64,000 bases of DNA from a virus. Position numbers and translations under genes: made by a program. The DNA is taken from positions 1 to 64,000 of IMG/VR virus record IMGVR_UViG_3300028558_000016, one strand, 5' to 3'. This document shows positions 497 to 10,284 of this stretch, piece after piece. Each line of letters begins with the position of its first letter. Within the stretch, counting starts at the first letter, position 1. Under the pieces are notes generated by a model. The model was not told where the DNA came from. It was given only the letters and a program-made list of their open reading frames with translations, and made no database searches.

Positions 497-1039
497 TTAA
501 TAATTTTTTAGCTTATGAATATCTTCAGGTCCGTTTAGCACAACCCAATCTCTGTCCTTAAACACAAAATGAATTGTAAGCTTTATGTCAGGCCTCTTCG
601 TCCACAGCTCAGTGAAATTCTCAATGTGTTCGATCATGTCATCAAAGAATTCTATCTCCTTAACGTCAGGATAATGCTCATCGATTATTCTTATCGCTCG
701 GTCAACCTTCTTTTTCCCGTCATACTTCAATGAATGGTGATGGAAATAAAGCTTGTTCTTCTCGAGTATTGGCATGATGTTTGGCTTTAGCCTATACATC
801 CTGTTTGTCAACACAACCTTTGCTGCAGTGTAATCCTCAGTTGCACGCATGTAATGAGGAAGTATACACTCCAACGGTTTAATGTTGAATTCAGGCATGA
901 GGCTTTCCCATCTACCCCACCAACCATTATGAGGATATGGAACACCTTTAATCCTCTCGTATTCCTTCTTCCCTTCATCGGGAAGAGGAACATCGAGAAG
1001 AGTGCCGTCCATGTCAAATATGTAAAGTTTTGTTATCAT
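497..1039 (-). CDS. HAD-superfamily phosphatase, Swiss-army-knife RNA-repair-like
   Basis: This 180-residue HAD-fold protein has the nucleophile motif DMDGT at residues 9-13 and a late acidic FFDD motif near residue 131. The length and N-terminal motif fit the HAD_SAK group of RNA-repair-associated phosphatases. It is immediately downstream of an Rnl1-type RNA ligase and upstream of a cREC gene. A reasonable inference is removal of 3'-phosphates or cyclic phosphates before ligation, as the phosphatase half of T4 Pnkp does. The substrate is not shown by the sequence. A promoter-like TAAATTAG lies 14 bases before the ATG (1053-1060). Confidence 0.75.
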   Translation of the reverse strand: MITKLYIFDMDGTLLDVPLPDEGKKEYERIKGVPYPHNGWWGRWESLMPEFNIKPLECILPHYMRATEDYTAAKVVLTNRMYRLKPNIMPILEKNKLYFHHHSLKYDGKKKVDRAIRIIDEHYPDVKEIEFFDDMIEHIENFTELWTKRPDIKLTIHFVFKDRDWVVLNGPEDIHKLKNY

Positions 1040-1065
1040 TTATTTCTATTTACTAATTTACTAAA

Positions 1066-2487
1066 TTAAACAATTACATTATAGCCTTTGATCAAATCGT
1101 TGTACAATTCTTTACCATCGAAATCCATCATGTATCTCTTAGAGCTTTTTGGACCTCCGATGAAATCAAAGAAGAACCCTTGGTGCTTCTTCAACTTTCT
1201 TTCTACAACAAATCTCATTACTTTTGCTGCCAACTTCTTTCTCAAGTTGGTCGCAGTTTCATCGCCTCTGTCGGAAGCACATTCTCTTATAGAAGATATT
1301 TCATCACGAGTGAATCCCAGCTTCTCAAAATCAACTGTGTCGATCTCAGCGATGTCTTTCACGTGAGTCAATCCAAGCTTAGCAAGAACATCTGCTCTCA
1401 AACCTCTCGATTCAAAAGTGATTGCATCCTTGTGCTTTCTGTATTCAATGAACTCCTCGTAAGTGGAAATTTCAGAAGTCAACTTGTCAATTTCTTTTAA
1501 AGTTCTCTTCCATCCTTCTTGCAAGTGTTCAATCTCTTCTCCTCTTCCTGGGAAAGTCGCCTTGTATTCGTTCACGTTGTCCTCACCAGATCTAACGATG
1601 TCGATCAATCTCCAGAACGCAGTTGAGTCCTTGAAGAAGTGGATTGCACAGTAAGCTGGATTCTTCATTTTTACACGAGGGTATCCAAACTCAGTATGCT
1701 TTCCATAATCACAAACAACATAACCTTCCTCACGGTAAGTCATGCCATCGAAAGACTCTTTCAATTTATCTGGAGAAGAATTCAATGCAAGAGTTGGAGC
1801 CATTGGCACACCAAGATCTTTTGATATAATCTCAAGATCAACGAAAGAAACTTCTTCCAAAGTATCAAGCTTTCTTGCACCCAACAAATAGACAGCACTG
1901 TCTTGGTGTGGTGTAACAACAATGTTGTACTTAGTACAAAGCTCAAACGCCAAAGTATATCCATCATATTTCTTAAACAAAGCTTTTACCCACTCAGTTC
2001 TAAGATCACAATGTTCCATCATTCTCACATCGTCATCTTCTCTCTTAACAGTCTCCATGAAAGCGTGAACGAACAAATCCGAGAATGTTCCTCCAAGCTT
2101 AGTATAGTGAAAGTTATCCACATCACCTTCTCCGTTAGCAGTTCCAGTTGTTCCGAAGCAAACTTCTCCTGTAACGTAATCAGTGTAAACGTGAATCATT
2201 GTTCCATCCATCTTTTTGAAGATCCTTGCAGACTCCCAGTTTATAGGTGCTGCGTGTCCTTCTCCAAGGTTGAAGAATTTTCTGAATGCAATGGACATAA
2301 CTCTCCAAGTATCTTTCTCAACTACAAGTCCTCTCGCATCTCTAACTTCCTCGTTAGTGAAGTTGGATTCGATAGAATCGTACTTAAGCAATACCTTGTG
2401 AGGATAGTCCTTGTGCTTCAATTTGAAGTCAGCAAGAGTCTTCTCAAGACCGTGCTCTTTTAGGTATTTTGTTATTGCGAGTTCCAT
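1066..2487 (-). CDS. rnlA: RNA ligase, T4 Rnl1-like
   Basis: This 473-residue nucleotidyltransferase has the adenylation motif KMDG at residues 92-95, preceded by an ARGLVVE / FRKFFN segment typical of T4 RNA ligase 1. Motif IV (EEGYVV) lies near residue 255 and a KxKN motif V near residue 272. T4 RnlA has 374 residues, so this protein carries a longer C-terminal region of unknown role. It joins 5'-phosphate and 3'-hydroxyl RNA ends, and in T4 it restores tRNAs cut by host anticodon nucleases. Its neighbours (HAD phosphatase, cREC, release factor) fit an RNA repair operon. No T4-like Pnkp kinase-phosphatase was seen nearby; the nearest P-loop kinase candidate is at 61795. Confidence 0.88.
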   Translation of the reverse strand: MELAITKYLKEHGLEKTLADFKLKHKDYPHKVLLKYDSIESNFTNEEVRDARGLVVEKDTWRVMSIAFRKFFNLGEGHAAPINWESARIFKKMDGTMIHVYTDYVTGEVCFGTTGTANGEGDVDNFHYTKLGGTFSDLFVHAFMETVKREDDDVRMMEHCDLRTEWVKALFKKYDGYTLAFELCTKYNIVVTPHQDSAVYLLGARKLDTLEEVSFVDLEIISKDLGVPMAPTLALNSSPDKLKESFDGMTYREEGYVVCDYGKHTEFGYPRVKMKNPAYCAIHFFKDSTAFWRLIDIVRSGEDNVNEYKATFPGRGEEIEHLQEGWKRTLKEIDKLTSEISTYEEFIEYRKHKDAITFESRGLRADVLAKLGLTHVKDIAEIDTVDFEKLGFTRDEISSIRECASDRGDETATNLRKKLAAKVMRFVVERKLKKHQGFFFDFIGGPKSSKRYMMDFDGKELYNDLIKGYNVIV

Positions 2488-2498
2488 TTCAAATATGA

Positions 2499-3023
2499 TT
2501 AGTAATGTTTACTTTTTCTTTTCTTTTTTCTACAAACAAGGTCAGCAGCGCAAGAAGCCGCGTAGGCATCTGGCTTTGATCTTACCCTGTATCCGGCAGC
2601 TCTTATGAATCCCATTCCAGAATCGTAAGCAATGTTGCTTTTCCATCTTGGATTTGGATTCAAGTCAAGGTCGATGTCAACAAGCTTCTCCATTGGAGAA
2701 ATTCTTGCATAAACCCCTTCAAGCTCCTTTTCAAGGTATTCGCCAACAGCGAAAGCTCGTTCAACTTCGCCCCAAAGCTTTGAATACATGTCCTTAGCTC
2801 TTGGAACGTTGTCAATACTGAAAATGTAGTGGGCACCTGCACCAACGTGGTATACAAGAACAACCGTTGCATAACGTGTCTTGTTTTTTTGATGCTCGGA
2901 GTCACATCCAACATAGATGCGGATTCCGTTTGGTGATGTGGACATGTGAGTCTTGATGTATTCCCTCATGTAGATACCGAGGTCATCAATGAATGCACCG
3001 CCAAATTTTTTAAAGTTTTTCAT
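2499..3023 (-). CDS. RNase H-like DUF458 (YkuK-type) protein
   Basis: This 174-residue protein has YVGCDSEH at about residues 37-44, followed by a YATVVLVY strand and a DIDLDLNPN...KSN segment near residues 117-131. These match the DUF458 family, a predicted RNase H-fold nuclease group; acidic residues D41 and E43 would be in the active centre. It is preceded by an unusually good Shine-Dalgarno sequence, AAGGAG, eight bases before the ATG. It lies directly upstream of the RNA ligase, so a role in RNA or RNA-DNA hybrid processing is plausible but unproven. Confidence 0.78.
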   Translation of the reverse strand: MKNFKKFGGAFIDDLGIYMREYIKTHMSTSPNGIRIYVGCDSEHQKNKTRYATVVLVYHVGAGAHYIFSIDNVPRAKDMYSKLWGEVERAFAVGEYLEKELEGVYARISPMEKLVDIDLDLNPNPRWKSNIAYDSGMGFIRAAGYRVRSKPDAYAASCAADLVCRKKKRKSKHY

Positions 3024-3657: not shown

Positions 3658-4347
3658 TTATGCGTGCAGCTGTCTAATGTTTCCCTTGTACAACTCCTTG
3701 ATGGTTATTTTTCTTCCTGTTACGTGATCAAGAACAAAACCATCCTGTTCTCTGTAAGTTCTTCTCTTGTCGTTTCTGTTTCCATAACCGATTTGATTGA
3801 ACCTCGTCTCTTTCACCTTGGCACCTATCGCACCATCATTAATGTCCTTGAGCCTTTCTTCAAGTCGTGCCCAAGCAGTCTCTTCATTTTTTTCTCTGGT
3901 CCTGTGCTCTTCAACTCTCACTATCATTCCAGTTGGAATATGAGTCAACACGCAAACAGTTTCTACCTTGTTTCGGTTTTGACCGCCGTTACCAGATCCA
4001 CGAGTGTACTTTCGATGCACGTCGTTTCTATTTAAGACAAATTTTGGTTGGGAGTTTTCTTCCATTACAGCTACCGTCACGGTGCTGGTCTGTACTCTTC
4101 CTCTCTTTTCAGTTGGAGGAACTCTTTGCCATCTATGTCCGCCTGATTCGTTCTCAAAGAACTTCCTGACTCCGTTTCCAGTCAGTCATAGCGAGACATA
4201 ACCTGGCATTCAGTGTTCTACTGCAGAAGCAAATTGATTGATGCTTGCGGCCTTTTGATAAATGTCCGCCATTTCATTGACGAGGAGCTTTGCATCTTCT
4301 CCTCCTTCTGCTGCTCGAATTTCGAGCTTGATCTTTTCTGTTTTCAT
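3658..4347 (-). CDS. RF1-type peptide chain release factor interrupted by two in-frame UGA codons
   Basis: A single reading frame of 229 codons encodes a near-complete class I release factor without the N-terminal helical domain. Residues 1-45 (KLEIRAAEGGEDAKLLV) are the start of the PCRF domain. After a UGA (4210-4212), MPGYVSL and a second UGA (4186-4188), the frame continues LTGNGVRKFFENESGGHRW. It then has VPPTEKRGR, where PPT matches the PxT codon-reading motif of RF1 (UAA/UAG). The catalytic GGQ is in RGSGNGGQNRN, followed by a normal C-terminal domain. Both UGAs sit where a sense residue is expected; the second falls in a beta strand where Trp would fit. TGA is a normal stop elsewhere in the window. 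The gene is therefore either recently broken, expressed by readthrough, or expressed as a C-terminal fragment from an internal start such as the GTG at 4080. Confidence 0.8.
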
Positions 4348-4427: not shown

Positions 4428-5015
4428 CTACTTAAGTTTCTTTTTCTTTGTCAATTCTATTAATTTCTCTCTTGCCAATTGTTGTTCAACATAATCAGCG
4501 ATAATTACTATAGTTGAATCGCTTATCCACATGTGGCTTCTTCCGTTCACAGTAAGAGAAAAATCTCCATCACTTGGATCAAGAACAACCTCTGTTATCT
4601 TCTTGATTGGATTGTGCTTCTCTTTATCTTTCGCATCTCGTTCTAACGAGAATTTTGCCATTATGTCGCTGTTCCATTTCTTTGCATTTTTCTTGCTTTC
4701 TCCGGTGTAATTGAAATACTCAACATATTCTTTCAAAGGATTTCCTCCGTTTGCATTATTCAAACCACCTTTTAAAGTGTTTGCGTCTTCCATAATGACG
4801 TTTAAGTTTGTCCAGTCCTTCACCTTCTTCCAATTCTTATTCACATACACCTTCGCACATTCAGCAACTATTTGCATTGCTGCAATGTGTTGTCTATATT
4901 CGTTGTAGAAATTAGATGTCACAGAAAATTTTGAAGATTGCACTGTCTTTTCGTTTTCCTTGTCAGTCATCGAAACCGGGCGCATCATCATTCCATATAT
5001 CTCATTCTTTTTCAT
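4428..5015 (-). CDS. hypothetical protein
   Basis: This 195-residue soluble protein has a Lys-rich C-terminus and no recognised domain. Its ATG overlaps the TGA stop of the upstream gene at 5002-5015, so the two are probably translationally coupled. Function unknown. Confidence 0.75.
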   Translation of the reverse strand: MKKNEIYGMMMRPVSMTDKENEKTVQSSKFSVTSNFYNEYRQHIAAMQIVAECAKVYVNKNWKKVKDWTNLNVIMEDANTLKGGLNNANGGNPLKEYVEYFNYTGESKKNAKKWNSDIMAKFSLERDAKDKEKHNPIKKITEVVLDPSDGDFSLTVNGRSHMWISDSTIVIIADYVEQQLAREKLIELTKKKKLK

Positions 5016-5271
5016 CTTCTTTTATTGTTAGGTCGATTTCTACTATCTTCCATGTCAAACATTCTTCGAGATTCTCCACAAAAACAGGATGAACCTGATT
5101 ATCTCCTTTTTCTTTTCTCAACCAAACACCTTTGTTCCATTGAGAAACCCACCAGCCTATAGTTCCATCTGGTGCTTTAACTTTAATTTTATTTAAACCG
5201 CCAAATCCTTCAGGAAGATCAGCAATGGTTTTTATCTCCTTGCCTTCAAGAATTATCTTTTTGTTTTTCAT
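5002..5271 (-). CDS. hypothetical protein
   Basis: This is an 89-residue acidic-tailed protein with two Trp-rich strands (GWWVSQWNKGVW). It ends in TGA inside the start of the next gene. It is the first protein gene after the tRNA cluster in the direction of transcription. No family is recognised. Confidence 0.68.
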   Translation of the reverse strand: MKNKKIILEGKEIKTIADLPEGFGGLNKIKVKAPDGTIGWWVSQWNKGVWLRKEKGDNQVHPVFVENLEECLTWKIVEIDLTIKEDEKE

Positions 5272-9439: not shown

Positions 9440-9775
9440 ATGATGAAAAATATACTACTCATAGCATTCATTCTTATGAGCTCATTCGTGTTAGCTCAGA
9501 AGAAATTTGAAAAGAAATTCACAAATGGTTTGATCGAAGAAACAGGATTCTTTGACAAGACTGGTTTGAAAGACAGCGTGTGGATCTCTTACAATGAAAA
9601 AGGAATTCTAATAGGAGAAGGACACTTCTCACACGGAATTAAAACAGGAATCTGGAAGACCTTCTATGAAGACGGTAAAATAATGTTTGAGATACCTTAT
9701 GTAGAAGGACACAAAAAAGGAGAAGGCAAACAATTCAGCCAAGAAGGAGAATTGATTGCCTCTAAAGATTATTAA
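9440..9775 (+). CDS. secreted MORN_2-repeat protein
   Basis: A 111-residue protein with a signal peptide (MMKNILLIAFILMSSFVLA, cleavage near residue 20). About three MORN_2/YwqK-type repeats follow, e.g. SVWISYNEKGILIGEGHF, TGIWKTFYEDGKIMFEIPY and KGEGKQFSQEGELI. Such repeats occur in bacterial envelope proteins and toxin-antitoxin-linked YwqK proteins. It is the only plus-strand protein gene between 1 and 61.6 kb, with its own promoter, and it overlaps the convergent gene at 9772 by four bases. It may be a host-derived envelope-acting protein. Confidence 0.75.
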   Translation: MMKNILLIAFILMSSFVLAQKKFEKKFTNGLIEETGFFDKTGLKDSVWISYNEKGILIGEGHFSHGIKTGIWKTFYEDGKIMFEIPYVEGHKKGEGKQFSQEGELIASKDY

Positions 9776-10284
9776 AATATTTTGTGAATAACTTTATTTT
9801 CTAACTTGTCTCTTACCAACGCAGCCTTCTCATATTCTTCTTTGTAAACAAAGATCTCCATGAGCGTTTTCATTTGAACATCTGATAAAAGCTTCTGTCC
9901 TTCTAATGCTGTTGTGACTATTCGGTCTGCAACAAATATGTGAAAGTCATCCATGGTAGGATCATACCCATCCATTAAACATCCTTGATAGAAAGCAAAT
10001 CCTATTTGTGGATCCACAATCATGCACTGTTCAAACTTCTCTATTTTTTTCAGGTATCCCTCGAAATGATCTTCGCCATCGTCGATTTCAGCATCGATTT
10101 CAGCATCAATGTTATTATCTGGAATATCTGAAAAAACAAATGAAGGGAGAAAATCTTTTTTCGTAAAAAATAAATTAGAAAAAGCAAGTCCCCATTCTCC
10201 AGCCTTCATGTTAGCGACGTCTTTCATCGCTCTTATTAAACTCCATCCCTTTATGGGTTCTCCGTAAATCAAAAACTCATCCAT
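9772..10284 (-). CDS. hypothetical protein with C-terminal UVR-like motif
   Basis: A 170-residue acidic protein. The start at 10284 is chosen because it follows the stop of the upstream gene and has an AAGG leader; the frame opens further, to 10374. A DAEI repeat encoded by tandem DNA repeats lies near residues 60-70. The C-terminal region EEYEKAALVRDKLEN resembles the UVR motif of UvrB/UvrC-type proteins. Function unknown. Confidence 0.65.
   Translation of the reverse strand: MDEFLIYGEPIKGWSLIRAMKDVANMKAGEWGLAFSNLFFTKKDFLPSFVFSDIPDNNIDAEIDAEIDDGEDHFEGYLKKIEKFEQCMIVDPQIGFAFYQGCLMDGYDPTMDDFHIFVADRIVTTALEGQKLLSDVQMKTLMEIFVYKEEYEKAALVRDKLENKVIHKIF

Follow-up and report, generated by a model that had tools for sequence, protein, structure and literature searches.

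Control of RF2 synthesis through a near-cognate tRNA reading an in-frame UGA was proposed before release-factor genes had been sequenced, and frameshifting was found instead. According to a 2016 review, in-frame readthrough occurs in no bacterial RF2 gene and a UAG/RF1 counterpart is unknown; the sole example cited was a giant virus of amoebae, Mimivirus (PMC5009743). The release-factor genes of Mimivirus (R726) and Megavirus (mg280) employ UGA-C readthrough and a frameshift at CUU UAG C (the site in Mimivirus) or CUU UAA C, and Trp was proposed to be inserted at the UGA (PMC3521657). Recoding was not found in prfA, and UAG was absent from 8,164 prfB sites (PMC12421855). In the literature we found no report of a recoded RF1-like family devoid of domain 1, the Mimivirus release factor being the sole precedent found. 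Here we analyzed a gene of this type in the window, a 64,000-nucleotide stretch of a 482,156-base virus record, together with its relatives in phages and bacteria.

Release-factor gene with two in-frame UGA codons

The first-pass annotation reported an RF1-type release-factor frame containing two UGA codons. Translation of the minus strand with TGA read as X yielded 229 residues with X at positions 46 and 54 and a terminal TAA, so that both codons lie exactly where they had been placed (Table 1). The Pfam matches to PCRF (PF03462, 9e-18) and RF-1 (PF00472, 2e-21), as well as the PPT tripeptide and the GGQ motif, are all in a single frame, and such a set of release-factor domains across two UGAs is far beyond chance. 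Frameshifting was rejected for the window gene itself, since the phase is unbroken between and after both UGAs.

Table 1. Features of the release-factor locus, in window coordinates
Feature	Position	Strand	Basis or remark
RF1-like release-factor gene without domain 1, 229 codons plus TAA	3658..4347	-	Translation, Pfam, NCBIfam, AlphaFold2/Foldseek
In-frame UGA, codon 46 (UGA A)	4210..4212	-	TGA likewise in L001, L003 and L004
In-frame UGA, codon 54 (UGA C)	4186..4188	-	Column is TGA/UAG in 19/162 sampled cluster representatives
True stop UAA	3658..3660	-	Translation of the frame
PCRF domain, codons 4-92, containing both UGAs	4072..4338	-	Pfam
PPT (PxT-type) stop-codon recognition tripeptide, codons 77-79	4111..4119	-	Motif in frame
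GGQ peptide-release motif, codons 121-123	3979..3987	-	Motif, RF-1 domain match
Candidate hairpin CUGACU-GGAAACGG-AGUCAG directly after second UGA	4166..4185	-	Closest relatives only; weak support in window clade
Candidate long stem (UGCCA/UGGCA, UAUGUC/GACAUA) enclosing second UGA	4127..4208	-	z -3.5

The GGQ motif, the PCRF domain, the tripeptide and the overall fold place the product among the class-I bacterial release factors (RF1/RF2 superfamily). It begins at the PCRF core and has no N-terminal domain 1, and is therefore not RF1 (prfA) proper. The SPF tripeptide of RF2 (prfB) was not present in the window protein, which has PPT instead. Among the NCBIfam models, prfA ranked first (169 and 157 bits; cut-offs 400 and 423), followed by prfB (88 bits; cut-off 370) and prfH; all these scores are far below the cut-offs because domain 1 is absent. 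The AlphaFold2 model, built with UGA read as Trp, had a pLDDT of 90, and the predicted fold matched ribosome-bound RF1 with a TM of 0.90 in Foldseek. We assign the predicted product to RF1-type class-I release factors without domain 1.

The gene is adjoined by genes for an RNA ligase (PF09511), an RNase H-like protein (PF04308) and a weak HAD_SAK_1 match (window 497-3023), arranged in the same order in the relative L001. Because of these neighbors, an RNA-repair partnership of the RtcB-PrfH type was considered and rejected: RtcB is absent from the window phage and is not adjacent to the gene in its relatives.

An IMG/VR record (L001, 76% identical) and the 635-kb relative LR745206 (L003, 69% identical) share both TGA codons with the window gene. 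Among genes with about 45-50% identity to the window gene, the first TGA is shared by LR756504 and the second by LR756502 and LR756501, the last of which has a further TGA. TAA terminates all six genes, including that of the window. The two-UGA layout was also found in a Bacteroidetes genome bin (L327), and internal stops occurred in none of the 11 canonical RF1 genes that the family scans also picked up.

In the window clade, pN/pS was lowest (0.13) between the second UGA and the tripeptide and highest (0.56) in the seven codons separating the UGAs, with 0.21 upstream of the first UGA and 0.25 in the GGQ region; the pattern was alike in other clades. These values point to purifying selection on both sides of the stops, and, as the first-pass annotation had held, neither UGA is the end of a domain. 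As expected for programmed readthrough, the in-frame stops of the window gene are thus conserved and flanked on either side by constrained coding sequence.

Readthrough and frameshift members of the family

The family was sampled by profile scans of IMG/VR and GTDB genomes with conserved peptide patterns, which gave at least 213 distinct proteins forming at least 162 clusters at 80% identity after removal of canonical RF1s. Among the matches listed, 156 of the 162 sampled clusters of this domain-1-less RF1-like family had a recoding site, a fraction that holds for the sampled set because it depends on each scan's sample and on the conserved peptide patterns. In-frame stops were found in 57 clusters (64 UGA and 4 UAG sites), and a prfB-type +1 frameshift at CUU-stop in 86 (UGA 62, UAG 21, UAA 3), the classifier favoring CUU sites where several readings exist. 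Among the matches listed, 76 of the 86 frameshift clusters had a Shine-Dalgarno-like sequence upstream, and 66 had C after the stop. A further 13 of the 162 contained one or two CUU-stops further upstream, before the PCRF core; in LR756511 these are CUU UAA C followed by CUU UGA C. Six clusters were open, without a recoding site, and no +1 frameshift member lacking CUU was found among the sampled clusters. Two CUU-stop +1 sites in series before the PCRF core were observed in L008 (3880-4060, LR756511.1), L231-L233, L236, L237 and L245.

Members of the family reside in huge phages and in bacterial chromosomes (Myxococcota, Pseudomonadota), including those of Minicystis rosea and Nannocystis isolates. 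The 47 chromosomal loci among the matches listed comprised 37 frameshift, 7 readthrough and 3 open members.

The main readthrough column coincides with the position of the CUU in 80 of the 86 frameshift clusters among the matches listed. In canonical RF1 this column is occupied by Trp or Phe, so an origin of the stop from UGG and its decoding by tRNA-Trp appear plausible. On a quick, approximate tree of the family, at least 14 state changes are needed; a UAG frameshift member (L054) is nested within the readthrough clade of the window. The proposal of the first-pass annotation that the factor would be made through UGA readthrough, as an in-frame counterpart of RF2 frameshifting, is strongly supported, and is extended by the presence of the RF2-type CUU UGA C at the homologous position in relatives.

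In the sampled family, the gate codon and the recognition tripeptide did not track each other. The tripeptides include PPN, PPS, PPG, SPT, SPL, PKN, PHL, PDN and even deletions (L154, L161-L165, L183, L187, L205, L223, L236, L241, L244, L246, L315 and others). Such diversification is most unusual for release factors, and the factor may therefore act beyond the classical RF1 specificity.

Several loci had irregular copies. Extra partial copies (4966-5175 and 9709-10026) flank the intact release-factor gene on the same contig in L059. L068 has TAA at codon 182, within the GGQ half, in addition to a UAG close to the typical position; no other stop beyond the typical region occurred among the first 80 loci listed, so this copy may be defective. 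The copy in L035 (6001-6589) lacks codons 35-67 and has a changed frame, being possibly broken or chimeric.

The base 3' of the readthrough stop was A at 42, C at 23, G at 2 and T at 1 of the 68 sampled sites, so that A and C together account for 65. By contrast, the window phage's ordinary TGA stops were followed by A in 64, T in 34, G in 18 and C in 10 cases (T 27%, C 8%). The readthrough stops of the family thus appear to lie in leaky contexts. Structure in the region 6-76 nt past the stop had a mean z of -1.9 in readthrough genes versus -0.1 in frameshift genes, the in-gene control being about -0.4 to -0.5. In the largest readthrough clade (site-A), a 16-bp stem begins 8 nt after the UGA; nine of its pairs show compensatory changes, and 93% of cells were paired, compared with at most 44% when one arm was slid. 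The covariation score of this stem, whose register is that given by RNAalifold, was reached by 0 of 500 shuffles. The stem enclosing the second UGA in the window had z of just -0.9 and -1.8 in relatives and is therefore treated as a candidate; in the clade of the window, RNA structure has weak support as a candidate stimulator.

Proposed termination gate and rival explanations

We propose that synthesis of the factor is gated, the UGA stops being passed when termination is slow, and give this reading a probability of roughly 0.8. It draws on the anatomy of the gene, the conserved stops, selection, the interchange of readthrough and frameshifting at a homologous position, the leaky contexts and, in one clade, the covarying 3' stem-loop. 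From these features we infer readthrough in the cell, the inserted residue, the sensing of RF2 or of termination capacity, and the codon specificity. Ribosomes would meet UGA at codons 46 and 54 and, with normal host RF2, most of them would terminate and release a short dead peptide. Upon slow decoding of UGA, a near-cognate tRNA, probably tRNA-Trp, could read both UGAs, and the resulting full-length factor would terminate UAA and UAG messages. In relatives, the equivalent gate would operate via +1 frameshifting at CUU-UGA, CUU-UAG or CUU-UAA. Opening of the gate under slow stop decoding is suggested because the stop codon is the constant element, whereas the means of bypassing it differs. Counting against this reading, passage of two successive UGAs should leave very little full-length factor, except where UGA decoding is severely impaired.

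The largest Mahaphage-clade phages have been predicted to infect Bacteroidetes (PMC7162821), and low prfB frameshifting has been cited for Flavobacterium, which seldom uses Shine-Dalgarno sequences (PMC12421855). The window phage may therefore use readthrough since hosts such as its likely Bacteroidota host frameshift poorly.

Across the family, nearly every member is locked behind its own stop, and the factor would therefore appear only when termination fails. We consider it evenly balanced whether these proteins are a third widespread lineage of bacterial-type release factors, acting as an emergency terminator gated by a stop in its own gene, with the lock mechanism switched repeatedly.

Since factors with PxT are not expected to recognize UGA, simple autoregulation does not account for a UGA gate in such a gene; either host RF2 would have to be sensed, or the factor would need an unusual codon specificity and also read UGA. 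The latter case amounts to direct autoregulation, in which a phage factor of relaxed specificity recognizes UGA in addition to UAA and UAG and halts its own synthesis. This is possible, if on the unlikely side: UGA, UAG and UAA gates all occur in one family with the same PPT motif, and both the tripeptide and the decoding-site His are unusually variable (His is replaced by Gln in the window clade), but PPT is the motif of the RF1 type, and NCBIfam ranks prfA above prfB.

We regard as unlikely a constitutive moderate readthrough independent of RF2, whereby the stops would set a low dosage of the factor and sense nothing. The leaky stop contexts are in line with it, as are the stem-loops, which stimulate readthrough in known systems. 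Excess release factor could also be harmful; RF2 is reported to be toxic in Bacillus subtilis, the effect of RF1 being milder (PMC12421855). On the other hand, every gate consists of a stop codon within a release-factor gene, and it persists where readthrough has given way to frameshifting. Some members even place two such stops one after the other (CUU UAA C and then CUU UGA C being one case), a layout suggesting that termination itself is sensed.

Reinitiation or an internal start, giving two products, a short N-terminal peptide and an independent GGQ-domain protein (compare ArfB and the GGQ-only proteins of Otagovirus), is improbable. GTG at 4080 would open a 140-aa GGQ protein, and some phages do have GGQ-only proteins; however, the codons from the last stop to PPT are the most constrained of the gene, ATG occurs in this interval in 5% and any start codon in 39% of readthrough members, and frameshift relatives need a change of frame rather than a restart. 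The GGQ-only proteins of Pseudomonas Otagovirus phages (L376, L377, L379), of about 130-160 aa, are annotated as release factor 1. Their genes were considered as a cultured model and rejected, as they encode the GGQ domain alone; these proteins form a separate family without a recoding site.

A pseudogene or assembly error, put forward in the first-pass annotation and consistent with two stops within one frame, is highly improbable given the identical stops across independent records (IMG/VR and curated LR genomes), the recoding in genomes of cultured isolates such as M. rosea and Nannocystis, the purifying selection and the covariation of the 3' stem.

In a simple ORF set covering the whole record, the 540 predicted genes of the window phage ended with TGA in 126 cases, TAA in 387 and TAG in 27; TGA is a normal stop phage-wide, as had been noted for the neighboring genes. 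None of the 55 tRNAs predicted by ARAGORN in the window phage had the anticodon UCA. TGA likewise ends 162 of 849 genes in LR745206, where a UCA tRNA was sought and not found. Internal stops were present in 0 of the 116 LR745206 genes with a homologue in the window phage and, in the reverse comparison, in 1 of 108, namely a TAA. The in-frame TGAs are therefore a property of the release-factor gene and not of the genome, and the window genome is not recoded. The first-pass annotation had remarked that its finding would also fit phages that shift UGA meaning. A code 4-like change of UGA to a sense codon throughout the genome, in effect late in infection or in the host, has in its favor that some phages recode stop codons and that three of the 55 tRNAs have CUA anticodons, but it is contradicted for the genome as a whole by TGA terminators, the lack of UCA tRNAs in both phages and the absence of in-frame TGA from other conserved genes, and is scarcely credible. 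Selenocysteine at UGA was rejected as well: there was no Rfam SECIS match and no UCA tRNA, and the homologous column is Trp/Leu/Phe, not Cys.

The three tRNAs with CUA anticodons, candidate amber suppressors, are located at G000 358020-358092 (minus strand), 368276-368349 and 374278-374351; the last is well folded, though the phage coding is standard. A tRNA predicted at G000 413915-413998 (L030 9915-9998) has a CCA anticodon with a long variable arm (class II, Ser/Leu-like) and is not a normal tRNA-Trp.

Comparison with known release factors

The family appears to supply the missing readthrough design many times, beside the frameshift design at a homologous codon, so the two are directly comparable. 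Huge phages would carry a termination factor with synthesis tied to stop-codon decoding by the host, which makes phage control of termination testable. Gene callers likely fragment such recoded genes.

Canonical RF1 (prfA) shares with the window protein the PxT and GGQ motifs, the fold and the best NCBIfam match, but has domain 1 and no programmed recoding (PMC12421855); the genes of all 11 canonical RF1s caught here are open. PrfH (RFH) is likewise a class-I homologue without domain 1 that has kept GGQ and has an atypical codon-recognition region (PMC1586002). The window protein differs in scoring 55 bits against the PrfH cut-off of 167, in a TM of 0.63 to PrfH versus 0.90 to RF1, and in having no linked RtcB. 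We know of no report of recoding in PrfH.

As in prfB, where a +1 frameshift is used, an early in-frame stop of the gene itself would gate release-factor synthesis, and the prfB motif, CUU UGA C with an internal Shine-Dalgarno sequence, is identical in relatives of the window gene. Unlike that of prfB, the window product is of the RF1 type (PxT) and has no domain 1, and its gene would use in-frame UGA readthrough rather than a change of frame at CUU-stop. The site here lies within the PCRF domain, whereas that of prfB is near codon 26, and UAG gates occur in the family but not among the 8,164 prfB genes (PMC12421855). Mimivirus and Megavirus resemble the window family in having viral class-I release-factor genes with readthrough and/or CUU-stop frameshifting. 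Their factor is, however, eukaryotic/archaeal eRF1-like, with a fold unrelated to the window protein and amoebae as hosts, and it represents two viruses, whereas the window family comprises at least 162 clusters in phages and bacteria.
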